DNA of 34,932 nt from an uncultured Erysipelotrichaceae bacterium (GTDB taxonomy: Bacteria; Bacillota_I; Bacilli_A; RF39; UBA660): the NCBI GenBank assembly GCA_902767365.1, contig CACXGX010000056.1, positions 1-34,932 of the forward strand, in the 5' to 3' direction. Below the pieces are notes generated by a model. It searched no databases. It worked only from the letters and a program-made list of their open reading frames with translations, and was not told the DNA's origin. This document shows positions 67 through 34,932 of this stretch, piece after piece. How positions within the stretch are numbered: the first letter of the stretch is position 1; the number at the start of each line of letters is the position of its first letter. Made by a program: the position numbers and the translations under genes.

Positions 67-1065
67 ATGAAAATACTAGTTACTGGAGGTTGTGGCTATA
101 TAGGAAGCCATACTTGTGTAGAATTATTAGAAAGTGGATATGAAGTTGTAATTGTTGATAATCTTTCTAATTCAAAGGAAGATGTTATTGATAAAATAAA
201 AACAATAACTGGTAAAAAAGTTAAATTATATAAAGAAGATGTATGTAATTATACTGCTATGGATAAAATATTTGAAAAAGAAAAAGTTGATGCAGTAATT
301 CATTTTGCAGGATATAAAGCAGTTGGAGAAAGTGTTAGTAAACCATTAATGTACTATCGAAATAATTTAGATTCTACGTTAACACTACTAGAAGTAATGA
401 CAAAACATAATTGTAAAAAAATAGCATTTTCATCAAGTGCTACAGTATATGGAAAACCAAAAAAATTACCAATATTAGAAGATTTTCCATTATCAACAAC
501 TAATCCATATGGTCCTACCAAATTAATGATAGAAATGATTTTAAAAGATTTGTATACTTCAGATAATGAATGGAGTATTGCTATTCTTAGATACTTTAAT
601 CCAATTGGAGCTCATAAAAGTGGTTTACTTGGAGAAGATCCTAATGGAATACCAAATAATTTAATGCCATATATAGTAAAAGTTGCTAATAAAGAATTAA
701 AAGAATTAAGTATATTTGGAAATGATTATAATACTAAAGATGGAACAGGAGTAAGAGATTATATTCATGTTGTCGACTTAGCTAAAGGTCATATAAAAGC
801 AATTGAAAAAGTAATGAAAGATAAAGGAGTAGATACATATAATCTTGGTACTGGAAAAGGTTATAGTGTTTTAGAAATAGTAAATACATTCCAAAAAGTA
901 AACAATGTTAAAGTTCCTTATAAAATTGTAGATAGAAGACCTGGAGATATTGATGCATGCTATGCTTCAACAAAAAAAGCTAAAGAATTACTAAATTGGA
1001 AAGCAGAATTAGAAATCGATGAAATGTGTAAAGATTCATATAATTTTGTAAAAAAGAATAAATAG
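67..1065 (+). CDS. galE: UDP-glucose 4-epimerase GalE
   Basis: Cytosolic NAD-dependent SDR-family enzyme that interconverts UDP-glucose and UDP-galactose. The 332-aa length is typical. Visible features are the Rossmann motif TGGCGYIGSH (residues 6-15), the SSSATVYG segment with the catalytic Ser/Thr region (122-129), and the Y148-x3-K152 pair in NPYGPTK. The C-terminal half carries the substrate-binding segment around RYFNPIGAH. A good ribosome binding site (GGAGGT) precedes the ATG. The zinc-ribbon gene begins eight bases after the stop, so they are probably cotranscribed. UDP-galactose made here could feed the CpoA-like glycosyltransferase at 2426, which is an inference from proximity. A related 4-epimerase acting on UDP-GlcNAc is possible but the general family call is secure. 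Confidence 0.95.
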   Translation: MKILVTGGCGYIGSHTCVELLESGYEVVIVDNLSNSKEDVIDKIKTITGKKVKLYKEDVCNYTAMDKIFEKEKVDAVIHFAGYKAVGESVSKPLMYYRNNLDSTLTLLEVMTKHNCKKIAFSSSATVYGKPKKLPILEDFPLSTTNPYGPTKLMIEMILKDLYTSDNEWSIAILRYFNPIGAHKSGLLGEDPNGIPNNLMPYIVKVANKELKELSIFGNDYNTKDGTGVRDYIHVVDLAKGHIKAIEKVMKDKGVDTYNLGTGKGYSVLEIVNTFQKVNNVKVPYKIVDRRPGDIDACYASTKKAKELLNWKAELEIDEMCKDSYNFVKKNK

Positions 1066-1073
1066 GAGGAATT

Positions 1074-1337
1074 ATGAGAATTTGCTCAGCTTGTGGAGAA
1101 AAAAATGAAGATTGGATGGATATTTGTCAAAGATGTGGAAAATCTATAGTTAATGCTGAAGTAGATAATACAGATGATACATCAAATAAATTCATCTATG
1201 ATGATTATGAGGTTGAAGAAAAAGAAGAAAAACCTAAAAAAAAGATAATAATTGCTAATTTAGATTTAAAAATTATATTAGTAGTATTACTTGTAATTCT
1301 TTTTATATTATTTATGATTGTTTTAAAATTAAAATAA
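1074..1337 (+). CDS. Zinc-ribbon protein with one C-terminal membrane segment
   Basis: Small 87-aa protein. The N-terminus carries two CxxC knuckles (CSAC at residues 4-7 and CQRC at 18-21) that form a typical zinc ribbon. An acidic and lysine-rich linker follows. The last 20 or so residues (about 66-84) are a hydrophobic helix followed by KLK, so the protein is probably tail-anchored with the ribbon in the cytosol. It starts eight bases after galE with its own AGGAGG site (taggaggaattatg), which suggests translation from a shared mRNA. Such zinc-ribbon membrane proteins are common in Bacilli and generally uncharacterised, so no function is assigned. Confidence 0.8.
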   Translation: MRICSACGEKNEDWMDICQRCGKSIVNAEVDNTDDTSNKFIYDDYEVEEKEEKPKKKIIIANLDLKIILVVLLVILFILFMIVLKLK

Positions 1338-1534
1338 TATAGGATTTTATATTAATAAAAAGAATAAAATAGTAGGTGTGATGGTATTCTTTTGTAATTG
1401 GTGAAAGTGTATTCTATATAATGGATAATAGTAACCAAAAAAAATATAGAAATGTCAAGTAATGAAACAATACATCTAGATAATACTATTATTATAAAAA
1501 AGATAAAAAAATTTAAATATTTTGGAGAATAATT

Positions 1535-1564
1535 GTATCGAATCTCTTCTTTCTAATCATAATG
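1535..1564 (+). promoter_or_regulatory. Candidate sigma-G (or sigma-F) promoter of sigG
   Basis: GTATC at 1535-1539, an 18-base gap and CATAATG at 1558-1564. This is close to the sigma-G consensus known from Bacillus (GHATR, 18-base spacer, CATxHTA), with one mismatch in each box. Transcription from here would give a very short leader into the AAAGGAGA ribosome site at 1571. Autoregulation of sigG fits, but the match is by eye in AT-rich DNA. Confidence 0.45.
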
Positions 1565-1584
1565 ATTATGAAAGGAGAGATTTT

Positions 1585-2358
1585 TTGTCACGTCATAAAG
1601 TAGAAATTGTTGGCGTGAATACATCAAATATCAAAGTATTAACAAATGAAGAAATGAAATCTTTATTTGAAAGATTAAAAAATAATGATAAATTTGCAAG
1701 AGAAGAATTAGTAAATGGTAATTTGAAATTAGTTTTATCAATTATCAAAAATTTTAGAGAAGTAAATGAAAATAAAGATGACTTATTTCAAATAGGCTGT
1801 ATAGGACTATTAAAAGCAATTGATAACTTTGATCCTTCTTTTGGGGTTAAATTTTCTACTTATTGTGTGCCTATGATTTTGGGAGAAATAAGAAGATATA
1901 TTAGAGATAATTCTAGTATTAGAGTAAGTAGATCACTTAAAGATTTAGCATATAAAAGTAATAAAACAAAAGAAGAATTATCACTTACTCTTGGAAGAAG
2001 TCCAACTATTATTGAAATAGCAAATTATTTAGGAGTAAGTGAATATGAAGTGTGTGATGCTTTAAAAGCAAGAAAAGATCCAATAAGTATATTTGAACCA
2101 ATATATAATGATGGAGGAGATACGATATACTTATATGATCAAATAGAAGATAGAAAAGACAATATTGAACTTGAATTAAAATTATCTCTTAATGATGCCA
2201 TTAATAAACTTGAAGAAAGAGAAAAATATATATTAGATCAAAGATTTGTTATAGGGAAAACTCAAGTTGAATTATCAGAAGAATTAGGAATAAGCCAAGC
2301 CCAAATATCTAGAATAGAAAAGAAAGCTATTGATACTTTAAAAAAGAAAATTAACTAA
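1585..2358 (+). CDS. sigG: RNA polymerase sporulation sigma factor SigG (TTG start)
   Basis: Late forespore-specific sigma factor directing transcription of spore protection and germination genes. The TTG at 1585 is chosen because AAAGGAGA (1571-1578) sits at ideal spacing, and the resulting start SRHKVEIVGVNTSN matches the conserved SigG N-terminus. The product is 257 aa, close to the 260 aa of the Bacillus subtilis protein. An in-frame upstream ATG at 1522 would add 21 residues unlike the family. Region 2 is visible as DDLFQIGCIGLLKAIDNFD and FSTYCVPMILGEIRRYIRD, region 3 around the FEPIYNDGGD segment, and the region 4 helix-turn-helix as TQVELSEELGISQAQISRIE near the C-terminus. In Bacillus sigG follows spoIIGA-sigE; here those genes are absent and galE and a glycosyltransferase flank it. 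Confidence 0.95.
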   Translation: MSRHKVEIVGVNTSNIKVLTNEEMKSLFERLKNNDKFAREELVNGNLKLVLSIIKNFREVNENKDDLFQIGCIGLLKAIDNFDPSFGVKFSTYCVPMILGEIRRYIRDNSSIRVSRSLKDLAYKSNKTKEELSLTLGRSPTIIEIANYLGVSEYEVCDALKARKDPISIFEPIYNDGGDTIYLYDQIEDRKDNIELELKLSLNDAINKLEEREKYILDQRFVIGKTQVELSEELGISQAQISRIEKKAIDTLKKKIN

Positions 2359-2390
2359 GATTATTAAAATATTCTTAGTTTTTATTTTTT
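2353..2390 (+). terminator. Intrinsic terminator of sigG
   Basis: The stem AACTAAGA (2353-2360) pairs with TCTTAGTT (2373-2380) around a 12-base loop and runs into a T-rich tract. The 5' arm overlaps the sigG stop codon. Confidence 0.8.
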
Positions 2391-2398
2391 TGAAGTAG

Positions 2399-2407
2399 TG
2401 ATATACT
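2399..2407 (+). promoter_or_regulatory. Extended -10 promoter of the CpoA-like gene
   Basis: TGA-TATACT lies 18 bases before the ATG at 2426 and just beyond the sigG terminator. No good -35 box is seen, as expected for extended -10 promoters. Confidence 0.45.
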
Positions 2408-2425
2408 TATATTAGGAGGAATCTT

Positions 2426-3433
2426 ATGAAAGTATTACTTTATACAGAAATGGAAAAAAAAGTTAGAAAGAGTGGGCTTGGTAAAGCAATAGAACATCAA
2501 AAAACAGCTTTAACTAACGAAGGAATTGAATGGACTACTAATCCAGAAGATAATTATGATATTATTCACATAAATACATGGTTTTTAAAATCGTATAGAA
2601 TGTCTAAAAAAGCACATAAGAATGGAAAAAAAGTTGTATATCACGCTCATTCAACAGAGGAAGATTATCGAAATGGTTTTATATTCTCAAAAGCAACATC
2701 TAAAATAGTTAAATGGTGGCTAGTAAAATGTTATGGTAGTGGTGATGTAATTGTAACACCAACTCCGTATTCAAAAAGATTATTAGAGGGATATAAAGGC
2801 TTAGAAAAGAAAAAAATATATGCTATATCTAATGGAATAGATATGACTTTATTCCAAAAAGATGAAAAAGCAGGAGAAGAATTTAGAAAAGCCTATGGCT
2901 ATACTAAAGATGACAAAGTTATCATTGGAGTAGGATTATATATTAGAAGAAAAGGAATTGTTGATTTTGTTGAACTTGCAAGAAGATTACCTCAGTACAA
3001 ATTCATTTGGTTCGGTTATAGTAATCCTAAAGCTGCTACTAAAGATGTTAGAAAAGCAGTAAATACTAAACTTCCAAACTTAATATGGGCTGGATATGTA
3101 GAACAAGATATGATTAAGAAAGCAATGTGTGGAGCAAATTTATATTTATTTCCAACTTTAGAAGAAACAGAAGGAATTCCAATAATAGAAGCCTGTGCAT
3201 GTAAACAAAATGCTATAATCAGAGATATTCCAATTTTTGAGGGATGGCTAGAAGATGGTAAAAATGTTTACAAAGCTAAAGATGTAGATGCCTTTGAACA
3301 AAAAATAAAAGATTTCTTTGATGGAAAACTACCAAGTTTAGTAGAAGAAGCATATAAAGTTGCTATTGAAAGAGACATAAAAACAGTTGGAAAGCAATTA
3401 AAAGCAGTATATGAAGAAGTCTTAAAAGGATAA
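2426..3433 (+). CDS. Family 4 glycosyltransferase, CpoA-like glycolipid synthase
   Basis: GT4-family retaining glycosyltransferase of 335 aa. The N-terminus (LLYTEMEKKVRKSGLGKAIE), the HINTWFLKSY and VVYHAHSTEEDYRNGF segments and TPTPYSKRLLEGY closely follow the streptococcal CpoA group. That group transfers galactose or glucose onto glucosyl-diacylglycerol to make diglycosyl membrane lipids (known for CpoA; inferred here). The C-terminal nucleotide-sugar site is visible in EETEGIPIIEACACKQ, with the E-x7-E pattern of GT4 enzymes. No transmembrane helix is present; the enzyme probably acts at the inner membrane face. A strong AGGAGGA site precedes the ATG. The gene has its own promoter and terminator, and galE 1.4 kb upstream could supply UDP-galactose. 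The exact sugar cannot be read from the sequence. Confidence 0.82.
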   Translation: MKVLLYTEMEKKVRKSGLGKAIEHQKTALTNEGIEWTTNPEDNYDIIHINTWFLKSYRMSKKAHKNGKKVVYHAHSTEEDYRNGFIFSKATSKIVKWWLVKCYGSGDVIVTPTPYSKRLLEGYKGLEKKKIYAISNGIDMTLFQKDEKAGEEFRKAYGYTKDDKVIIGVGLYIRRKGIVDFVELARRLPQYKFIWFGYSNPKAATKDVRKAVNTKLPNLIWAGYVEQDMIKKAMCGANLYLFPTLEETEGIPIIEACACKQNAIIRDIPIFEGWLEDGKNVYKAKDVDAFEQKIKDFFDGKLPSLVEEAYKVAIERDIKTVGKQLKAVYEEVLKG

Positions 3434-3456
3434 ATTTACTATAGAAATACTTTTAA

Positions 3457-3488
3457 AATAAAATCTTGTATAAGATTTTATTTTTTTG
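3457..3488 (+). terminator. Intrinsic terminator of the CpoA-like gene
   Basis: An 11-bp stem, AATAAAATCTT (3457-3467) with AAGATTTTATT (3472-3482), has a GTAT loop and is followed by a run of T. Confidence 0.85.
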
Positions 3489-3551
3489 TTTATTATTTTT
3501 AACTATTGTGTTAAAATGATTATGATAGAATAATAAGGTGGTGGCTATTAT

Positions 3552-5576
3552 ATGTTAATAGACTTACTAAGAGAATATGATTTACTTCATAGTAGTATTT
3601 TAAATGGTGGTAAAATTAAATTTAATATTAATTATCTTTTTAATGGCAAAGTATATGTTTCTTTACTTGCACTTATAAATGGAGAAGAAAAAAAATCTTC
3701 ATTTGATTTTGAAGATAATGAAGAATTTAATAATTTTACTCTTCCTAAAATATTTGAAAGATTTATATCTAAAAATTATGGAATTACTTCAAGACGTATT
3801 ATGGGAAATGGTAAATTTGGAACTTTTATTATTGAAAGAAAAGATTCTAAAGATTCGCTTATAGTACGTAACTGTTCAATTGATGTAATGAACTTATTTG
3901 AAGACTTACATGCATCATTAAATAATGTATTTAATACTAGTTCTAAATTTGATTCTACTATTATTTTTGAAGAAAATAAAAATCATAAATATGATACATA
4001 TATGAAATACAATATTATTTTCGATTTTGCAGATTATAGGACTAACTTCTTTAGAGGAATATTCGTTGATAATTATTCTGAAATAACACCTGATAAAGAT
4101 GAAGTAGATGATACAGAACAGTTATTAATGTTAAATATAGCAAGGTATGCTTATACTTTTGAAAATTTAGATAATAAGAATATTTGGAAAGAAATTAAAG
4201 ATTCTTATAAAGATAATGAAAAAGTAGCAAATATTTGTGATAATTTTGCAAATATAGATTATATGGCAGATACATTATATTCTAAAGCATTAATTTTAGC
4301 AGAATTTGAGAAAAATAATGATTTAATATTACATAGTAATAATGATATAGTTGAAGAAGCTAAAGAATCATGTGAAAAATCTGTTAGTTTCTTTAATGAA
4401 AGTTATTTAAGATATTGGACAGACAGAGAAAAATATTATTCATCTATTTTAGATGGAATTCATCAAGCTATATGTATTGATTTCATTGATGCCCATGATA
4501 TAAGTGAAAATAAATCTAATCATGTAGAAATAAAAAATAAAATTGATTATAGTAGTAATAAAGATTCAGATGATGACAATAATATATTATCAAAATTAAA
4601 AAAGATAAGAGATGAAAAATTATCATTTGGAACAATTATTAATAATCCAATCGAAGTACCAAAAAATAATAATAGTATAGAACTTGAAATAAATAGAGAA
4701 GAAATTTTAGCTGGGGCAGAAGAACAAGCAAGAAAGATAATTGAAATCAAGAAAGAAAGAGATCAATTGAAAAAAGATGCTGAAGAATTTGCCAAAATTA
4801 TTTTAAAGAGTGAAAGAGAACATAAAAAAATACTTGAAGCAGCAGAAGAACAAGCTCGTAAAATCATAGAATTACAAAAAGAAAATGAACAATTAAAACT
4901 TTTAGCAGAAGATAATGCAAGATATTTATTTGAAAGAGATAAAAAATTAATGGAGGAAGAACAACTAAGAGAAGTAATAAATAACATGCCTGTTAAATCT
5001 CAAGATATAGATAAAATAAATAATTTATTAAATGCTATATCTAGTGTAAAAGATCTTGATTTTGCTGTTAATCATCCAACTACACTACAAGAATTAATGT
5101 TTTTAGAGGAGAAAATAGCTACATATTTGACAACACATAAAAATATAGTACATGAAGAAAATAAAATAACTGCAATTGAGAAAGAGGAAATGTTAGAAAC
5201 TAGACCTGTAATTGAACTTCTTGCTATGATAAGAAATACATACGTTTCTAGTCATACATTTGAAAAAGATGGAAGACATACATTAATATATTTTGCACCT
5301 ATAGATGAAGACACATATAAGATTTCATTGTATTCTATAAAAGATGATAATGAAGACTTATTAATGGACGTATTCTTTGAAGAATATCAATTAACTGATA
5401 ATGTTATACAAGAATTATGTGATATATTCAAAACAGATACAGTAATTGTAGCAAGTAAAACAGATAATGTACCTCCAGATAAAGCCGATTATTTAGTAAT
5501 AGATAATATGGATAATGCATTTAAATTTATGGGTTGCAAAAAAGATTTTATTGAAAAAATTAAAAATTATCTTTAA
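3552..5576 (+). CDS. Unknown 674-aa protein with AEEQAR helical repeats
   Basis: I do not recognise this family. There is no signal peptide or clear membrane helix, so it is probably cytosolic. Residues 1-330 form an acidic mixed domain. Residues 388-469 contain four consecutive units of about 20 residues; units 1 and 3 are nearly identical (GAEEQARKIIEIKKERDQLK and AAEEQARKIIELQKENEQLK) and units 2 and 4 are weaker. This stretch should be a long charged helix or coiled coil. Residues 540-674 look like a separate globular domain ending in FIEKIKNYL. The AEEQA unit recurs in the repeat protein starting at 32550. The gene stands alone, with GGTGG before ATG 3552 and extended -10 candidates at 3509-3517 (TGT-TAAAAT) and 3523-3531 (TGA-TAGAAT). 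It converges on rodA. Confidence 0.8.
   Translation: MLIDLLREYDLLHSSILNGGKIKFNINYLFNGKVYVSLLALINGEEKKSSFDFEDNEEFNNFTLPKIFERFISKNYGITSRRIMGNGKFGTFIIERKDSKDSLIVRNCSIDVMNLFEDLHASLNNVFNTSSKFDSTIIFEENKNHKYDTYMKYNIIFDFADYRTNFFRGIFVDNYSEITPDKDEVDDTEQLLMLNIARYAYTFENLDNKNIWKEIKDSYKDNEKVANICDNFANIDYMADTLYSKALILAEFEKNNDLILHSNNDIVEEAKESCEKSVSFFNESYLRYWTDREKYYSSILDGIHQAICIDFIDAHDISENKSNHVEIKNKIDYSSNKDSDDDNNILSKLKKIRDEKLSFGTIINNPIEVPKNNNSIELEINREEILAGAEEQARKIIEIKKERDQLKKDAEEFAKIILKSEREHKKILEAAEEQARKIIELQKENEQLKLLAEDNARYLFERDKKLMEEEQLREVINNMPVKSQDIDKINNLLNAISSVKDLDFAVNHPTTLQELMFLEEKIATYLTTHKNIVHEENKITAIEKEEMLETRPVIELLAMIRNTYVSSHTFEKDGRHTLIYFAPIDEDTYKISLYSIKDDNEDLLMDVFFEEYQLTDNVIQELCDIFKTDTVIVASKTDNVPPDKADYLVIDNMDNAFKFMGCKKDFIEKIKNYL
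4713..4958 (+). repeat. Four degenerate AEEQAR repeat units within the 674-aa gene
   Basis: The units begin at 4713, 4773, 4839 and 4899, spaced 60, 66 and 60 bases. The first and third encode GAEEQARKII/AAEEQARKII and the others DAEEFAKII and LAEDNARYL. They are related by motif to the 60-bp array at 33891-34549. Confidence 0.8.
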
Positions 5577-11173: not shown

Positions 11174-11182
11174 TGTTATAAT
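11174..11182 (+). promoter_or_regulatory. Extended -10 promoter of the prepilin-like gene
   Basis: TGT-TATAAT lies 25 bases before the ATG at 11208. It is a perfect -10 hexamer with TG extension; no clear -35. Confidence 0.6.
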
Positions 11183-11207
11183 GTTGTATATAGTAGGAGT
11201 GTGTCTT

Positions 11208-13970
11208 ATGAATAAAAAAGGTTTTACTTTAATTGAAATAATTGGATCAATAATTATATTAGGTATAATATCAATAATTGCCTATAATGCTTATACTAGT
11301 AGCTTAAGAGGATTTAGAGAAGATTATTATAATGATTTAACAAGGACTCTACAAGAATCAGGAAAAGAGTTCTTTAACGACAATAGAAAATATAAACCAA
11401 ATGGAATATTAGAAGCACAAAAAGTTACATTAAATGGATTAATGACAGAAAAATATTTAGATGAAGTTGTAGACTATAATGGCGATGCATGTAATATTAA
11501 TTCTAGTTATGTACTTATATTAAAAGAAGGAAGAGATAAATATACATATCATACATGTTTAATTTGTAGTGAAGATAACTTTGATAATACAACAACCGAT
11601 AAATATTGTGATCCTGCCTGGTTAGATCCAACTAAAATAGGTTATGATATTGGAATTAATCTAGAACCTATATACATATATAAAGGAACAGAAAGAAGCA
11701 AATTAAGAGATTTACTAAAATTACCATTATCAATAGTTAGATATGACTATAATGGTCAAAAAATTGCATCAGTAGAAACAGAAGCAAAAGATGGATTAGA
11801 AATGTTATATCCAGTAGATATTGATATTATAGACATAAATAAAGAAGCAACATATAAAGTGACATATGAATATACACCTCCAAAACCAAATAATGAGGGT
11901 GTAATAAAAAAAGGTAGTGAACCAAGAAATGTAATCGTATATGAAAATACTGCACCTGAAATAAGTATTAGATATGAAAATAAAAGAGCAGATGCAAATT
12001 TTACATTAAATCAATTAGGTTTAACTAATAAAACAGGTAGTGGAAGTGTTAAGACAGAAAGTGGAGCATATGTAACTAATACTTGGGCTCAAAAAATTAT
12101 AATAACAATTAACAGTGATACTATTTTACAAGATCCTACAGAAACTATATTAAAATATCAATGGAGAAGAAATAATAAATGGCAAGATTTATGTACAGGT
12201 AGTGAAATACATGATGGATATTGTGAAACTGAATTATTAAATGATGTAGATGATGAAATAAGCTTTAGGATGATTTCATCCGAAGGAAAAATAAGTAAAG
12301 AAACAGAACCAATAAGAGTAAAAAGAGATTATACACCTCCTGTATGTGAACTTTCATTAGAAGGTACACTTGGGCAAAGAAATGGTTCATCAACTGGATG
12401 GTACACAACAGATGTTAAAATAACATTTAATAATAAACAAGATTTACCTGCTGATAGTACATCTCCAGTAAGTGAAATTAAGATAAATAATATCCATTTA
12501 GATTCAGATAATGTAGATAGAACACTATCAAATGAATTAAATACACAAAATAGAGATGTTGAATCTGCAACATATAAAGGATTTGTAGAAGATAATGCTG
12601 GAAACTTTGTTACATGTAGTAAAACAATTAAAAGAGATGCAACAAAACCAGAATGTACATTGGAGTTATCTGGAACAAAAAGAACAGATGATCCTAACAC
12701 TTATGTATCTAAAGTAGTTGTAACAGCACAAGCTAATGATAATTTAAGTGGAGTATATCAATATGGAATAAATGGTGATATGAATAAGCATACTGATACT
12801 CAAACTACCAATGGCGAATCTATTACATATAATGGAATTGTAGAAGATAATGCAGGAAACACAAATACATGTAATGTAGTATTTAAAAAGAATAGTAACA
12901 TTTTATTGACTTTAGATCTTAATGGTGGAAATGCATGGACAAATTCAACATGTACAGGATCAGGAATAAATTTTTCTAGTCCTGCATGTATAAAGACAGT
13001 AACATATGATGAATTATATGGAACATTACCAATTCCATTAAGAGATGGATATTCATTTGAGGGGTGGTATTTAGGTACAACATTAATAACTAGTTCAGCA
13101 AAAGTAGATTTAACTGAGAATAAAATATTAACAGCTAAATGGAATGCAAATAGGTTTGTAATAACACTAGATAACAATGGAGCAACAGCACCAGGAAGCA
13201 CAACTACATATGCATCTTATAATTCTAGAACATTAGATCCAATAACAGTACCTCAAAGAGCATATGCTATAAAATGTGATGTAAATGGAACAGGTGCAAC
13301 ACTTTCTAATTGGAATGATATCATATTTACATACAGTTTTAATGGATGGTATATTTCAGGATCAGGTGGACAAGAAACCATGATTGCTGACAATAATTCA
13401 ACACCACAATTATTAAATGTTAGTGGATATACTGATGGAGAGGGAAAATGGAATAGAAATTCTGGAGCAACATTTACTGCCAAATGGTCAAGCGAAGCAG
13501 TTAGTTTACCTACAATAACAAAAAGTGGATATAGATGCGCATGGTATAATGCTAAAACAGGTGGAACTAAAGTTGCAGAATCAGGAGGAAGTTATAGTAC
13601 AAATCAAAATATCACATTATATGCTCAATGTGAGAGACTTTGTAGATATGACTGGATATTACAAAAAGAAGAAGATGTTTATGATTGTAATGAGTCCAAT
13701 AATGGATCAATAAAAGTAGTATGCCAAAATGATGGTATAGCTTCTCCATGGTATGGTACTTGCACTGAAACATGTGTATCAAGAAGTACAAGAACAAGGC
13801 TTGGACCTTTCTATGGATCTAGAAGTACAGCACAAACTAGATGTAATAATGATTGTAAAAATATAGCTATTAATGAATGCGGACAAGGGCAGTTTGTAAG
13901 TGGTAGATGTGGTACTCTAGCAGGTACACAACATTATACAAAGAAAACATATAAATACCTATGCGTATAA
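11208..13970 (+). CDS. Giant prepilin-like surface protein with Ig-like and InlB-type repeats
   Basis: 920 aa from ATG 11208 (AGGAG at 11195-11199). The N-terminus MNKKG-FTLIEIIGSIIILG is a textbook type IV prepilin signal: PilD-type cleavage after Gly5, Glu at +5 of the mature protein and a hydrophobic helix. This is normally found on pilins of 130-200 aa. Here it carries a large extracellular part: a globular region to about 370, two Ig-like units (about 375-563) with CELSLEGT and CTLELSGT starts, and two or three InlB/flg_new-type repeats (about 564-810) with the GYSFEGWYLG...LTAKW signature. The C-terminus (about 810-920) is Cys-rich. Such repeats are adhesive or structural in surface proteins. 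No prepilin peptidase, ATPase or other pilus gene lies in the window. A pilus tip adhesin is the likely role, by inference. Confidence 0.85.
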   Translation: MNKKGFTLIEIIGSIIILGIISIIAYNAYTSSLRGFREDYYNDLTRTLQESGKEFFNDNRKYKPNGILEAQKVTLNGLMTEKYLDEVVDYNGDACNINSSYVLILKEGRDKYTYHTCLICSEDNFDNTTTDKYCDPAWLDPTKIGYDIGINLEPIYIYKGTERSKLRDLLKLPLSIVRYDYNGQKIASVETEAKDGLEMLYPVDIDIIDINKEATYKVTYEYTPPKPNNEGVIKKGSEPRNVIVYENTAPEISIRYENKRADANFTLNQLGLTNKTGSGSVKTESGAYVTNTWAQKIIITINSDTILQDPTETILKYQWRRNNKWQDLCTGSEIHDGYCETELLNDVDDEISFRMISSEGKISKETEPIRVKRDYTPPVCELSLEGTLGQRNGSSTGWYTTDVKITFNNKQDLPADSTSPVSEIKINNIHLDSDNVDRTLSNELNTQNRDVESATYKGFVEDNAGNFVTCSKTIKRDATKPECTLELSGTKRTDDPNTYVSKVVVTAQANDNLSGVYQYGINGDMNKHTDTQTTNGESITYNGIVEDNAGNTNTCNVVFKKNSNILLTLDLNGGNAWTNSTCTGSGINFSSPACIKTVTYDELYGTLPIPLRDGYSFEGWYLGTTLITSSAKVDLTENKILTAKWNANRFVITLDNNGATAPGSTTTYASYNSRTLDPITVPQRAYAIKCDVNGTGATLSNWNDIIFTYSFNGWYISGSGGQETMIADNNSTPQLLNVSGYTDGEGKWNRNSGATFTAKWSSEAVSLPTITKSGYRCAWYNAKTGGTKVAESGGSYSTNQNITLYAQCERLCRYDWILQKEEDVYDCNESNNGSIKVVCQNDGIASPWYGTCTETCVSRSTRTRLGPFYGSRSTAQTRCNNDCKNIAINECGQGQFVSGRCGTLAGTQHYTKKTYKYLCV

Positions 13971-15415: not shown

Positions 15416-16066
15416 ATGACTGCAAGAAAAGTTTTTAACGTTATTACTATGATTTTAATAGTATATTTATTCATCAATTTATTTATTCCATTTATAGGAG
15501 ATTCAAATGTATCATTCAGTTTATGGGAGTATTTAAGTGAACAGTTAAATTCAACAACAGTAAGAGTATTATTAATTGTAGAACTAATATTTGCATTACT
15601 AGTATGTGTTTTACAAATATGTGGAGCTATTAAAGATTACAAAGGAGCATATTTATTTGTAGGATATTACTTTGGATATCATATCGCAATGATATTTCAA
15701 TTTATTGAAAGTGAAATAATTGATTATGCTAAAATTGGTTTATGGCTTGGACTAATTATGTCAATTTTAACTGTTGTATCAATTTTTATTGGTAACTTAT
15801 TAAATAATGAACCAAAACATAAAGAAAAAGTTGTTAATGATAATGATGAAAAGAAAATAATTGGATACGATCCTAAAACAGGGAAACCAATTTATGAAAA
15901 AGAAGAAGAAAAGAAAATAACTGGCTATGATCCAAAAACAGGAAAACCAATTTATGAAAAACAAAAAGAGAAAAAAATAGTTGGATATGACACACATACA
16001 GGTGAACCAATATACGCTGAACCAAAGGGATATGACCCAAAAACTGGTGAACCAATATACGAATAA
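15416..16066 (+). CDS. Membrane protein with GYDPKTGKPIY tail repeats
   Basis: 216 aa. Four hydrophobic segments (about 5-27, 43-67, 73-95 and 104-127) are followed by a charged cytosolic or surface tail. The tail contains four copies of G-Y-D-P-K-T-G-K-P-I-Y; the first three are spaced exactly 20 codons apart and separated by Lys/Glu-rich spacers. The N-terminus MTARKVFN and the membrane part are homologous to the next gene, a shorter paralogue. The family is not recognised; DP-x-TG-x-PIY tails occur in uncharacterised membrane proteins of gut Bacilli as far as I recall, and may be a short binding motif. AGAGGTG precedes the ATG. The gene has its own promoter and terminator. Confidence 0.8.
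   Translation: MTARKVFNVITMILIVYLFINLFIPFIGDSNVSFSLWEYLSEQLNSTTVRVLLIVELIFALLVCVLQICGAIKDYKGAYLFVGYYFGYHIAMIFQFIESEIIDYAKIGLWLGLIMSILTVVSIFIGNLLNNEPKHKEKVVNDNDEKKIIGYDPKTGKPIYEKEEEKKITGYDPKTGKPIYEKQKEKKIVGYDTHTGEPIYAEPKGYDPKTGEPIYE
15863..16063 (+). repeat. GYDPKTGKPIY repeats, four copies
   Basis: The motifs begin at 15863, 15923, 15983 and 16028, so the first three are a 60-bp tandem array and the last follows after 45 bp. Copies differ mainly at the third and later positions (GYDTHTGEPIY in copy 3). Confidence 0.85.
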
Positions 16067-16148: not shown

Positions 16149-16178
16149 TTACTTAGAAGGAAAGAGGTGTTTTTTGAA

Positions 16179-16664
16179 ATGACATTAAGAAAGGTTTTTA
16201 GTATCATCATTGCATCATTAACATTATTACTATTTATTTTCTCATTTGCTCCACATGTTGCAACAAGTTATGCAAGTGCAAATTTATGGGATGGAAGTAA
16301 AGCACAACCAATTATGTTACTTTTAGCATATCTTGGAATTATTACTGTTTACTTATTACATTTATTCTTAAATTTAAAAGAAAAATGGGTAACATATGTT
16401 AACTATGCTGTTGGATTTGTAACATTAAGTTACCTAACTATGTTCTTCCAAGGTTTAGATTATCTTGGATTTGGATTAGTTCTTGGTGTATTATTAGCTA
16501 TTGGAATCTGTGCATTATCAGTAGTTTGGTATTTTATGCCAGATAAAGCAATGGGAAACAAAGCACCAGTTAAAGGATTTGATCCAAAAACTGGAAAGCC
16601 TATTTATGCTAAACCAAAGGGATTCGATCCTACAACAGGTAAACCAATTTACGACGAAGAATAA
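16179..16664 (+). CDS. Membrane protein with GFDPKTGKPIY tail, paralogue
   Basis: 161 aa from ATG 16179. This start is chosen because MTLRKVFS aligns with the paralogue's MTARKVFN and AAAGAGGTG lies at proper spacing, while the upstream GTG (16167) overlaps that site. Four hydrophobic segments are followed by a short tail with two G-F-D-P-x-T-G-K-P-I-Y motifs at 16575 and 16620 (45 bases apart). It differs from its neighbour in having Phe in place of Tyr and lacking the long Lys/Glu spacers. Gene, promoter and tail were evidently duplicated together. Function unknown. Confidence 0.8.
   Translation: MTLRKVFSIIIASLTLLLFIFSFAPHVATSYASANLWDGSKAQPIMLLLAYLGIITVYLLHLFLNLKEKWVTYVNYAVGFVTLSYLTMFFQGLDYLGFGLVLGVLLAIGICALSVVWYFMPDKAMGNKAPVKGFDPKTGKPIYAKPKGFDPTTGKPIYDEE
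16575..16655 (+). repeat. GFDPKTGKPIY repeats, two copies
   Basis: Two motifs starting at 16575 and 16620 at the end of the paralogue, spaced 45 bases like the last two copies in the preceding gene. Confidence 0.8.
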
Positions 16665-30283: not shown

Positions 30284-31126
30284 ATGGAAAAACGTAGTGA
30301 TAGATACAATGAATCTTCTGAAGTACCACAGACAAAACAGACTAGAACCGCCAGAAATAGGTTATTGTATGACGAAGTAAATAGTAAAATAGGTATTGAA
30401 GAAATCCCTACTTACGAAACCCCAAAAGAGATTGACTTATCATCATTAGATATGAATAATCTAAATAGAGGAGATTATCAACAAGTAAAAGATTTTAAAA
30501 ATTTAATTGAAAACAGTAGTAAAGAAGAGGAAAAACCCCAAGAAGAAGTTAAAAAGAAAAATTATGATATTAATAAAGTTTTAGAAGAAGCTAAAAAAAA
30601 TAGAAAAGTAGACGAGTTAGAAGAAAAAAGAAATATAAAAGAAGAAGATTATAATGTTTTAAAAAATTTAAATAAAAAATATCTTCATCGTAAAGGATTC
30701 ACTGAAGAAGATAATGAGGAACTAAAAGAATTAATAGATACAATTACGTCAAAAACTTTAGTTGATGATATAAAAGACGATGAAGAAAAAGAACTTTTAA
30801 GTGAATTACTTGCAACAACAATTGATATAAAACTTGAAAGTGAGTTGTCTGATGAACAGATTCAAGAATTAGCAGATGAAAATACTAGCACAGAAGAATA
30901 TACAGATACGAACTCATTTTATTCAAAATCATTAGAATTATCCAAAGAGGATATGGTAGATGAAGGAAAAGATGAGACAGAAGAAATAGGTGAAATAAAC
31001 GAAGAAGATGAAGAAAAAGAAAATCATAATATTGCAAAAATTATTTTTTTCACAATAATTCTTCTTATAATTGTTGTAATTGTTAGTTATTTTATATTAC
31101 AGTTTTTTGGAATTAAGTTTAATTAA
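30284..31126 (+). CDS. Acidic tail-anchored protein, unknown
   Basis: 280 aa. Residues 1-250 are highly charged and very acidic (many Glu, Asp and Lys), without long hydrophobic runs. The final segment (about 252-275, IIFFTIILLIIVVIVSYFIL) is a membrane anchor, leaving almost all of the protein in the cytosol. A helical part lies around residues 120-200. It resembles no family I can name; similar acidic tail-anchored proteins occur in gut Bacilli next to late cell-division or sporulation genes. AGGAG precedes ATG. It is followed by a strong hairpin and yunB. Confidence 0.72.
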   Translation: MEKRSDRYNESSEVPQTKQTRTARNRLLYDEVNSKIGIEEIPTYETPKEIDLSSLDMNNLNRGDYQQVKDFKNLIENSSKEEEKPQEEVKKKNYDINKVLEEAKKNRKVDELEEKRNIKEEDYNVLKNLNKKYLHRKGFTEEDNEELKELIDTITSKTLVDDIKDDEEKELLSELLATTIDIKLESELSDEQIQELADENTSTEEYTDTNSFYSKSLELSKEDMVDEGKDETEEIGEINEEDEEKENHNIAKIIFFTIILLIIVVIVSYFILQFFGIKFN

Positions 31127-31171: not shown

Positions 31172-31864
31172 ATGAAAATGAAAATACTTTTAATAAATGG
31201 AATAATAATTTTATTGTCGATTTTAAATATAAATTTTATAAATTTAAAGACAAAGGATAATATAAAGACTTATTCATATATGATAGCAAGTAAAATAACG
31301 AAATATATAGTTAACAATGCCTATGTACGTGAAAAAATAAATTATTATGTGAATGATATTTATGATGTTATAAAAGGTGATTCAAATGAAATAAAAAATA
31401 TAATTTATAATTCAAGTAAAATAAATGATTTAATTAATTCAATTACTGATAGAGTGTATACAATGTTTAATATGCTTGAATATGGAGACTTAGAAAAAAT
31501 AAACATAAGGGAAAATATTTTATCTATTGAAAATACAAAAAGGAAAGGAATAGTACTAGAAGTGCCAAGTGGTATTATCTCAAATAATTATTTACTTAAT
31601 AATTTAGGTCCACATATTCCAGTAATGATAAATTTAACTGGAGAATTTGAATCATTCCTTTCTAGTGATATAAAAGAGTATGGCATTAATAATGCATTGA
31701 TAGAATTATCTATTAATATAAAGGTCAGTGAACAAATAACTATGCCATTTATTACTGATAAAGTTGAAATTGAAAATAAAATACCGATTTTTATAAGTGT
31801 TGTAAATGGAAATATTCCAAATTATTATATTGGTGGCTTTAATAAAAATTCTAATATATATTAA
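31172..31864 (+). CDS. yunB: Sporulation protein YunB
   Basis: 230 aa. YunB is a sigma-E-controlled sporulation protein of Bacilli and Clostridia acting in the mother cell; its biochemical role is unknown. An N-terminal hydrophobic segment (residues 4-24) precedes a long helical region and the diagnostic C-terminal part: VLEVPSGIISNNYLLNNLGPHIPV, IKEYGINNALIELSINIKV, ITMPFITDKV, KIPIFISVVNGNIPNYY. No good sigma-E promoter was found; CATATACT 13 bases upstream of the GGTGAT site matches 7 of 8 bases of the sigma-E -10 box, but no fitting -35 is present. YutD follows 35 bases later. Confidence 0.85.
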   Translation: MKMKILLINGIIILLSILNINFINLKTKDNIKTYSYMIASKITKYIVNNAYVREKINYYVNDIYDVIKGDSNEIKNIIYNSSKINDLINSITDRVYTMFNMLEYGDLEKINIRENILSIENTKRKGIVLEVPSGIISNNYLLNNLGPHIPVMINLTGEFESFLSSDIKEYGINNALIELSINIKVSEQITMPFITDKVEIENKIPIFISVVNGNIPNYYIGGFNKNSNIY

Positions 31865-31874
31865 TTAAAAAATG

Positions 31875-31883
31875 TGTTATAAT
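31875..31883 (+). promoter_or_regulatory. Extended -10 promoter of yutD
   Basis: TGT-TATAAT, perfect hexamer with extension, 16 bases before the ATG at 31900; no -35 box visible. Confidence 0.55.
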
Positions 31884-31899
31884 ATAAAATGGTGATAAT

Positions 31900-32181
31900 A
31901 TGAAAAAGATAACATTACTAGAAAATGAATACAATTTAATAAAAGAAAATGATGGGGCATTTGACTTAGAAGAAGTGATTTCACTAGCAACTGATTATTT
32001 TAAACCATATGATTACATTTTTGGAGACTATTCATATGGCAAATTAAGGCTTAAAGGATTCTATAATGACTCAAACAAAAAAAGTACAAGTGTAAACAAA
32101 CTTAGTTATCTTGATGAGTATTTAAAAGACTATTGCTCATACGGGTGTAAATATTTTCTTATAGAAAAAGTGAAAAAATGA
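31900..32181 (+). CDS. yutD: YutD-family protein (DUF1027)
   Basis: 93-aa protein. The core YDYIFGDYSYGKLRLKGFYND followed by LDEYLKDYCSYGCKYFLIEKV matches the YutD family of Bacilli (DUF1027), found in nearly all Bacilli but of unknown role. In Bacillus yutD lies near yunB, and the same order is kept here. The N-terminus is short compared to some relatives. A GGTGATAAT site precedes ATG. Confidence 0.85.
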   Translation: MKKITLLENEYNLIKENDGAFDLEEVISLATDYFKPYDYIFGDYSYGKLRLKGFYNDSNKKSTSVNKLSYLDEYLKDYCSYGCKYFLIEKVKK

Positions 32182-32191
32182 TTGTTTATTA

Positions 32192-32219
32192 TTGAAAAGT
32201 ATTGCAAATATGATAAAAT
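32192..32219 (+). promoter_or_regulatory. Promoter of the DUF1292 gene
   Basis: TTGAAA (32192-32197), 16 bases, TGA-TAAAAT (32211-32219). Confidence 0.6.
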
Positions 32220-32247
32220 ATTATTATAAAGAATAAGGAGGTTTAAA

Positions 32248-32520
32248 ATGGAAGATGAGAAAAAAATAATGTCTATTGTACTTGAAGATGGTTCAATAGA
32301 TGAAGTTGAAGTGTTATTGTCTTTTAAATTTACTGATACAAATACTGAATATATGATATATACAAAAAATGAAACTGATGATAGTGGAAATGTAACTATT
32401 TATATAGCATCAGTCGATAGAACAGATGGTGGAGATCCACGACTTGGAAGCGTTGATAGTGAAGAGGAATGGACAAGAATTAAGAATGTTTTAAGAGAAT
32501 TATCTAAACCAATAGAGTAA
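32248..32520 (+). CDS. DUF1292-family protein
   Basis: 90-aa acidic cytosolic protein. Residues 6-50 (IVLEDGSIDEVEVLLSFKFTDTNTEYMIYTKNE) and the SVDSEEEWTRIKNVLREL end match the DUF1292 family (YrzB-like), common in Bacillota next to yrrK-yrrL but of unknown role. AAGGAGG precedes the ATG at ideal spacing. The repeat protein follows after 29 bases and may be cotranscribed. Confidence 0.8.
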   Translation: MEDEKKIMSIVLEDGSIDEVEVLLSFKFTDTNTEYMIYTKNETDDSGNVTIYIASVDRTDGGDPRLGSVDSEEEWTRIKNVLRELSKPIE

Positions 32521-32549
32521 ATAATATTAAATGAACGGAGGTGGCAATT

Positions 32550-34932
32550 ATGATTAATATATTGGAGCAAACTGATTCATCTGAAAAAGTAAAACGTATT
32601 GAAAGAATCAGTGGTAGACTTGCAAGTAAAGTTAGATTTACAACTCCAACAGTACTTTCATTTAGAAAAAATATTAGCAATGGAAAAATAAAAGAAGCAA
32701 TTGCAAAATATAACGATAAATATATTGAATTAAGAAATGCAGTTGTTAGTGCTGAAGTAGCTGCCGCCGAGCAACAAGCTAGAGATAGTGTACTAAAAGA
32801 TCCAAATGCAGCAAAAGAAGAAGAACTTAGAAATGCAAGAATAGCAGAAGATAATATGATAGCAAAAATAACTTCTGTTGATATTGCAAAGCCAAGAATT
32901 GAATTTTTAAAAATGAGTATCGAGGCACTTGAAGGAAGATTTGGAACTATAGGTAAAAAATTTGGTGTAAATGTAAAAAAACAGTTCACACCAAAAGCAT
33001 TAAGCGTACCAATTCTATATTCAAAGGAATATCGTGTATTTTTTAGAAACGGTGATTTATATAAATTAGCAGACAAAATTAAAAATGTTGATCAATCAAT
33101 TCAAGACCAAATGGCACCAGAAATTCCAGTAAAGGTTGCAAATTGGCGTGGATTGTTTAATAGTATTTCAAATGAAAAAACAGAATTAAATATTGCAATG
33201 GATGCAATACCAGATCCAGAAACAGAAGAAAAGATGGATGCTGGGCAAATAAATAGAACAATAACTTCTGAAGAATTATCACATAGAAGAATGCTTGGAC
33301 AATTAGGAGATGAGATTCAAGAAGTTAGAAGACTACAAATGAGCTCTAATGGGTTATCTTCACCATTTAGTGCTGGGTTAAGTGAAAGAGAATATGCTTT
33401 ATTAGGAATGCTTTCAAATATATCTGGTGTAAATGAAATATCAAAGAAAAAGCCTAAGCCAGTTAAAATGTCAAATAATACAGAATTCCAAAATTTAATA
33501 GATCAAATCGTTGGATATAAAGAACCAATAAGTGAAGAAGAACATAAACAACAAGAAAAGAGTATGGAAGAATATTATTCTAATCCAGAGGTATCTCAAA
33601 TAATTGATGATTTAAGACATAAGGATATGTTATTCGCTTTTAATCAGCCAGAAGCTTACAACAAAGTAATGGAATCTGAAAGAATAGATAATGAAAAAAA
33701 AGCATCTATTTCTACTGCTATTGATGTATTGGATTATGAATCAGATAATGAAACAGATTCTGAAGATGGATTGCCATTAATTGATAAAATGGTACAAAAT
33801 AACAGTGAAACTATAACTAATGATGTAATTGATAGTAAAAAACAAGATTTAATTTTGAACTTAGAAAGTGAAAAAAAAGCACTAATAGAAGGAGCAATAG
33901 AACAAGCAAAATTACTACAAAAACAAAACGAATATGCTGATATTGTAAATGGGGCAGAAGAACAAGCAAATATGCTTCAAATAAATAATGAAAGAATTGA
34001 AATAATAGAAGGTGCTGAAGAACAAGCAAAAATGTTAATGGCTCAAAATGGAAATACAGACTTAGCAAATGGAGCTGAAGAACAAGCAAGAATGTTGATC
34101 GCTCAAAATAGAAATGCAGACTTAGCAAATGGAGCCGAAGAACAAGCAAAAATGTTGATTGCTCAAAATGAAAGAATAGACTTAGCAAACGGAGCCGAAG
34201 AACAAGCAAAATGCTAATAGCTCAAAATGAAAGAATAGACTTAGCAAATGGAGCTGAAGAACAAGCAAAAATGTTAATAGCTCAAAATGAAAGAATAGAC
34301 TTAGCAAATGGAGCCGAAGAACAAGCAAAAATGTTGATCGCTCAAAATAGAAATGCAGACTTAGCAAATGGAGCTGAAGAACAAGCAAGAATGTTGATTG
34401 CTCAAAATGAAAGAATAGACTTGTCAAATGGAGCTGAAGAGCAGGCAAGAATGTTGATTGCTCAAAATGAAAAAATAGACTTAGCAAACGGAGCTGAAGA
34501 ACAAGCAAGAATTTTATATAATAAAAATAAAGAAGCAGACATAAAAAACGAAGAAGAGATACGACAAAAAAAACTAAATGCACAATATGAAAGAGCAGAT
34601 TTAATTTTAGGAGCATATGAACAAGCTTTATATTTACAAAAAGAAATTAATTCTGGTTTAAAAGCATCAATAAGTAAATTAGATAATAGTTCAACTAGTG
34701 AAATTTTAGAAAATAAATCAAATACATTAGCTGGAGTATCAAGCACGTTAACAAATAATTCGTATATGCCACAAGCAAAAATTGAAAATCATACAACAAC
34801 ATTTGTTATAAATGATGAGAATATGAAAAAAGCAGCTGAAGAACAAGCAAGATTATTGAAAGCTCAAAATGATAGAGTAGACCTTATTAATGGAGCCGAA
34901 GAACAAGCAAGATTGTTAGAAACTCAAAATGA
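32550..34932 (+). pseudogene. Long AEEQA-repeat protein, frameshifted and cut by the window end
   Basis: Starts at ATG 32550 (ACGGAGGTGG eight bases before; GTG 32541 is inside that site). The first frame runs 555 residues to a stop at 34215-34217. Residues 1-445 are a soluble, charged, helical part with no recognised domain; from residue 448 on, a 20-residue repeat (GAEEQAKMLIAQNERIDLAN) follows. At 34208-34211 one repeat has four A where its neighbours have five; this one-base loss opens a stop. Read in the -1 frame, the repeat and a further unique linker stay open for 720 bases to the window end. The gene is either newly broken, phase-variable, or an assembly error. It is related by motif to the 674-aa protein at 3552. 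Likely a cytosolic or surface rod-like protein; no function is claimed. Confidence 0.75.
33891..34549 (+). repeat. Eleven tandem 60-bp AEEQA repeats
   Basis: Units start at 33891, 33951, 34011, 34071, 34131, 34191, then 34250, 34310, 34370, 34430 and 34490. The sixth (34191-34249) is 59 bp. Central units are almost identical in DNA, outer ones degenerate (first GAIEQAKLLQKQ, last GAEEQARILYNK). More diverged units lie at 34550 and 34610, and two more at 34832 and 34892 near the window end. Confidence 0.92.

Follow-up and report, generated by a model that had tools for sequence, protein, structure and literature searches.

A lineage-specific helical repeat, GAEEQA, in two protein families of one genus of gut and rumen Bacilli

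On sequence evidence, the GAEEQA repeat is a lineage-specific helical repeat of about 20 residues that occurs in two protein families of a single genus of gut or rumen Bacilli. Three genes carry it, termed A, B and C in what follows. A profile prepared from the B arrays recognizes the A arrays, the rest of the two proteins does not align, and at strict thresholds matches are confined to the genus. The unit spacing is 21 residues in A and mostly 20 in B. We found no published description of the GAEEQA unit in a literature search, and searches of A, B and C against Pfam, NCBIfam and PHROGs gave nothing convincing; an earlier sequence-only reading of this DNA had likewise named no described family with this unit. 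A Pfam DUF1565 match on the array (E 0.012), below that family's cut-off, was taken as chance.

Genes carrying the repeat

The window (the whole stretch of DNA analysed, 34,932 nt) is the entire contig C56 of a 1.6 Mb assembly in 134 contigs. Features bearing on the repeat are:

67..3433, + strand: galE, zinc ribbon, SigG-like sigma factor and glycosyltransferase genes, lying between gene C (by synteny) and gene A
3552..5576, + strand: gene A, 674 aa, predicted to have a helical middle with one long helix, and end domains
4713..4964, + strand: gene A array, four 21-residue units, GAEEQARKIIEIKKERDQLKK and relatives, within the predicted helix 382-478
32550..34932, + strand: gene B, incomplete, ATG at 32550 (GTG at 32541 a possible alternative) to a stop at 34215-34217
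33891..34549, + strand: gene B array 1, eleven 20-residue units GAEEQAKMLIAQNERIDLAN, 11 x 60 - 1 nt
34550..34669, + strand: two degenerate gene B units, EEEIRQKKLNAQYERADLIL and GAYEQALYLQKEINSGLKAS
34832..34932, + strand: start only of a second gene B array, AAEEQARLLKAQNDRVDLIN, GAEEQARLLETQN..., cut by the contig end

Tandem Repeats Finder gives array 1 of gene B a period of 60 nt (score 728), confirming the eleven units that the sequence-only reading had placed at 33891-34549; the four related units that it had noticed in A from 4713 are likewise there. It had described the carriers as two unrelated genes. That the module sits in otherwise different proteins is upheld, but the genes number three and fall into two families. 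The third carrier, gene C (1051 aa, L016:1867-5022), lies on another contig of this assembly, C92. In relatives the gene order is C, membrane protein, galE, zinc ribbon, sigG, glycosyltransferase, A, ftsW; since C92 ends in a membrane protein gene and the window starts just before galE, synteny most likely places C just upstream of the window. A and C have end domains in common (hhalign probability 84% for the N-terminal and 92% for the C-terminal domain), so that by this comparison they are probably paralogues with a helix between the end domains, and the module belongs to two families, B and A/C. Several C orthologues have no recognizable array, and the module would therefore be dispensable in C in some genomes. 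The C-type gene of G005 (L163:1977-9446) encodes a protein of 2489 aa, over double the normal size, carrying several of the repeated domains.

All 12 genus genomes have a B orthologue and 11 of them have gene A; neither gene was found in 47 genomes outside the genus. Two other genera (G023, G015) have the glycosyltransferase and ftsW genes with no A between them, so A was either gained in this genus or retained here alone. In two relatives, loci L077:5516-7153 and L078:9765-11423 hold a gene between A and ftsW whose product looks serpin-like by eye and has an N-terminal membrane segment.

Gene B has two conserved motifs, SGR.PSK.R.T at the N-terminus and PSKPIKI at the C-terminus. A relationship between the two motifs was rejected, their hhalign probability of 0.3% being close to the low value of a reversed control. 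Homology of B to the 430-aa protein that holds the corresponding position in a different genus (L151) was likewise rejected, with a probability of 0.1%.

A membrane protein of the window (15416-16066) ends in ∼2.7 copies (15848-16011) of a 20-residue tandem unit, KKIxGYDPKTGKPIYEKxxE, and the product of the next gene (16167-16664) terminates in two shorter copies, GFDPKTGKPIY. The N-terminus of a 929-aa protein (11181-13970), GFTLIEIIGSIIILG, is like that of type IV pilins, and stretches after it resemble InlB/Flg_new repeats by eye.

Searches and controls

The search profile was prepared from 16 stretches of three units each, all of them from B arrays, and run on 97 relatives. Within the 12 genus genomes every match at E<=0.01 belongs to gene A, B or C, and A arrays score 19.0–34.3 bits in 10 of the 11 A-bearing genomes, against a best score of 19.9 bits elsewhere. 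Outside the genus (85 genomes) there were two matches, at 19.6 and 19.9 bits. None reached E<=0.001 in these 85 relatives or in 393 class genomes; when 395 class genomes were searched, matches at that level were confined to the two genus members included. Profile–profile comparison of full A with full B aligned the array alone (probability 95.9%, E 5.9e-9), bearing out the earlier remark that the proteins are otherwise dissimilar. At the DNA level the window's A and B arrays are 73% identical over 98 nt.

These results have to be weighed against convergence, in which A, B and C would simply contain Ala/Glu-rich amphipathic helices where AEEQA-like strings recur, with no shared module. Such strings do arise elsewhere: an unrelated Leishmania protein has 146 copies of AEEQARR (PMC2254594). 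The A array is an ordinary heptad coiled coil by its period, one of ten B orthologues has a weak Pfam DivIVA match (E 3.4e-4), and the window's own A, at 21.7 bits, stands a small margin of 1.8 bits above the best match outside the genus. Shuffling argues the other way. The 11 real A arrays score 28.9–80.8 bits against the B-array profile (being orthologues, they count as one evolutionary event, not eleven), and the real scores were reached by none of 500 shuffles per array that kept composition and heptad positions, nor by any of 500 full shuffles. Convergence also has to contend with the coiled coils of all 85 + 393 genomes outside the genus, none of which matches at E 0.001, and with the restriction of matches inside it to the three genes. 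We consider convergence unlikely, and favour the shared, genus-specific module. The test that the sequence-only reading had proposed, a profile search that might expose both regions as generic coiled coils, thus did not refute the module, and the unit, for which it had suggested a search in more proteins, does recur in gene C.

B units agree at a mean of 11.4/20 positions within one gene and 6.6/20 between genomes; because they are more alike within a gene, the arrays are taken to be renewed by tandem duplication, and on these unit comparisons B arrays are in fast turnover. Among the seven most alike B units, 65/132 codon differences, about half, are synonymous. In G003 and G011 the DNA of the C array is matched best by the B gene of its own genome; in G001 and G000 it is not (in G001 the genome's own B is truncated), a hint of possible unit exchange between B and C within a genome.

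Genomic neighbourhood

Gene B starts ∼30 nt after the last of three genes whose order is conserved in the genus:

31172..32520, + strand: YunB (sporulation), YutD-like and DUF1292 genes (Pfam), upstream of B

In relatives B is followed by a weakly yutH-like gene and then a nifU-like gene, and near gene A are sigG and two CotZ-like genes. This neighbourhood, taken by itself, suggests a link of gene B to spore formation.

In a stronger version B would be a scaffold of the spore coat or cortex that the mother cell produces together with YunB, the array setting its length, with related roles for A and C. The genus order yunB - yutD - DUF1292 - B - YutH-like - NifU, the closeness of A to sigG and the CotZ-like genes, and the presence in a sister genus of a true SpoVID and a kinase-like gene near yutD are all consistent with this. 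However, none of YutD, DUF1292 and NifU is specific to spores, similarity to YutH is weak (E 1.2e-6, well short of the family's cut-off), SpoVID is encoded elsewhere in the genus, and most sister genera that carry yunB are missing both A and B. The sequence preceding gene A also speaks against it. A TGTGnTAnAAT-like element is conserved upstream of A in the window (3420-3551) and at the equivalent place in ten relatives; it looks like an extended -10 promoter, resembling the housekeeping type more, and such elements are found upstream of both A and C. A specific spore scaffold therefore seems to us rather improbable, and a link of B to sporulation is left at what the neighbourhood suggests. 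The simpler idea that B is a displaced SpoVID was rejected, SpoVID lying elsewhere in the genus and B being without both SpoVID domains.

Directly upstream of yunB, at 30284-31126, is a gene whose conserved, charged product of 280 aa has a single membrane segment at its C-terminus and resembles MacP only weakly (E 0.029).

Unit spacing and predicted structure

The sequence-only reading had given both genes an exactly 20-residue period. This is right for B in this genome and wrong for A, whose units are spaced by 21 residues in 32/33 cases (11 orthologues). Among B orthologues 65 spacings are of 20 residues, 10 of 21 and 6 of 17, and all others are longer; the regular spacings counted in gene C are of 20 residues. 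Since 21 is three heptads, the A array is by period an ordinary heptad coiled coil, and its hydrophobic period peaks at 3.50 (summed power, 11 orthologues), the heptad value. The window's B array has peaks at 3.33 and 4.0 and zero at 3.5 and 3.64, neither a heptad nor a hendecad pattern, with the limit that an exact 20-residue repeat can show harmonics of 20 only. The C array of G003 has the same two peaks and nothing at 3.5 or 3.64. A unit of 20 residues makes a continuous coiled-coil stripe impossible in B: with 100 degrees for every residue, successive units are rotated by 200 degrees relative to each other.

The array structures were predicted with AlphaFold2, and helices resulted for both A and B, making the helical scaffold proposed earlier the likely form. 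The B array (133 aa; an alignment of two rows, both from the window itself) was modelled as a single continuous helix, residues 2-132, with pLDDT 85 and pTM 0.34. Gene A (11 rows) has in its model an alpha-beta3-alpha-beta3-alpha domain at either end and a helical middle, where the array is contained in a single 97-residue helix, residues 382-478. Comparison of the whole 674-aa A model with PDB folds gave no convincing match (Foldseek best E 0.046, VIA-align best Z 5.4).

The B units might instead be short separate helices, each ending at NG/EG, forming an alpha solenoid or a string of binding units rather than a rod. Gly is conserved at position 1 in most B units (NG/EG) and not in A units, the 20-residue period allows no continuous stripe, and pLDDT in the regular units (81-85) is below that of the degenerate end that has no NG (92-95). 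Yet the predicted structure is one unbroken helix, and the unit lengths of 17, 20 and 21 in relatives are about one turn of helix, or a single residue, apart, which is more easily accommodated in a continuous helix. We find separate helices quite doubtful, and retain the continuous helix as the reading for B.

A frameshift in gene B

The reading frame of gene B is broken within array 1:

34191..34249, + strand: gene B unit 6, 59 nt, with four A in the A-run at 34208-34211 where sister units have five

Unit 6 reads GCAAAATGC, against GCAAAAATG in its sister units. Through this one-base deletion the gene B frame stops at 34215-34217, and coding continues in a second frame from ∼34211 up to the contig end. 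Ten complete orthologues (L065, L067-L075) have a single intact frame of 602-947 aa, none with a break of the unit 6 type, so the frameshift would be either an assembly error in the repeat or a mutation in this strain. That it is instead a real on/off switch, working by slippage in the A-run where the base was lost, is most improbable: the most similar tandem B units do share 82-97% DNA identity, but the run is short even at five A, the orthologues are unbroken, and in this 134-contig assembly the window's contig terminates within gene B's own repeats.

Proposed role

The A, B and C sequences show no evident signal peptide or membrane segment, and the proteins are therefore taken as cytoplasmic. 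We propose, as an even call, that GAEEQA arrays are helical rods or an association module in large cytoplasmic scaffold proteins of the B and A/C families. Each unit would add ∼3 nm of helix if straight, and the arrays would act both as rods and as surfaces for helix–helix association. The 21-residue units of A would form an ordinary heptad coiled coil; those of B would rotate their apolar face by ∼200 degrees each, so that consecutive units would point to opposite sides and might engage partners on one side and the other in turn. Against a rod, the helix might be interrupted at the NG/EG preceding each B unit. It is a guess that like units bring A, B and C together in one assembly.

The fullest version of this proposal is a genus-specific scaffold of A, B and C, cytoskeleton-like or spore-related, whose members recognize each other by their AEEQA units, in which the number of B units sets a length and the non-heptad 20-residue unit alternates the binding face; we think it very unlikely to hold in all its parts. 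If the main proposal is true, the repeat is a small, clear case of one helical unit used across two families of one bacterial genus, in registers of both 21 and 20 residues. It makes testable whether like repeats drive co-assembly and what the physical effect of a 20-residue helical period is, and it is relevant to the structural proteins of uncultured gut Bacilli, about which little is known.

Comparison with known systems

SpoVID (SPOCS_spoVID-N PF20918 + LysM) is comparable by position: in a sister genus SpoVID (L141:3073-3777; SPOCS + LysM) lies beside the kinase-like gene near yutD, in roughly the place of B here. It differs in domains, no Pfam SPOCS or LysM match being found in B or the ten complete orthologues, although the C-terminus of the window's B lies beyond the contig end. 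DivIVA (PF05103) shares the Ala/Glu-rich helix pattern and has the weak match in one B orthologue; window A, window B and 9/10 B orthologues give no match to it, and the long N-terminal region of B is not that of DivIVA. Leishmania LmjF29.0110, with its 146 tandem AEEQARR, repeats the same short string (PMC2254594), but in a 7-residue unit and in a eukaryote, with no sign of common origin. The canonical heptad coiled-coil scaffolds resemble the A array in its predicted long helix, 21-residue units and period of 3.5, whereas the B and C arrays depart from them in their 20-residue period, without a 3.5/3.64 stripe, and match no named family. The GAEEQA repeat has no described family, yet it is no radically new kind of thing.
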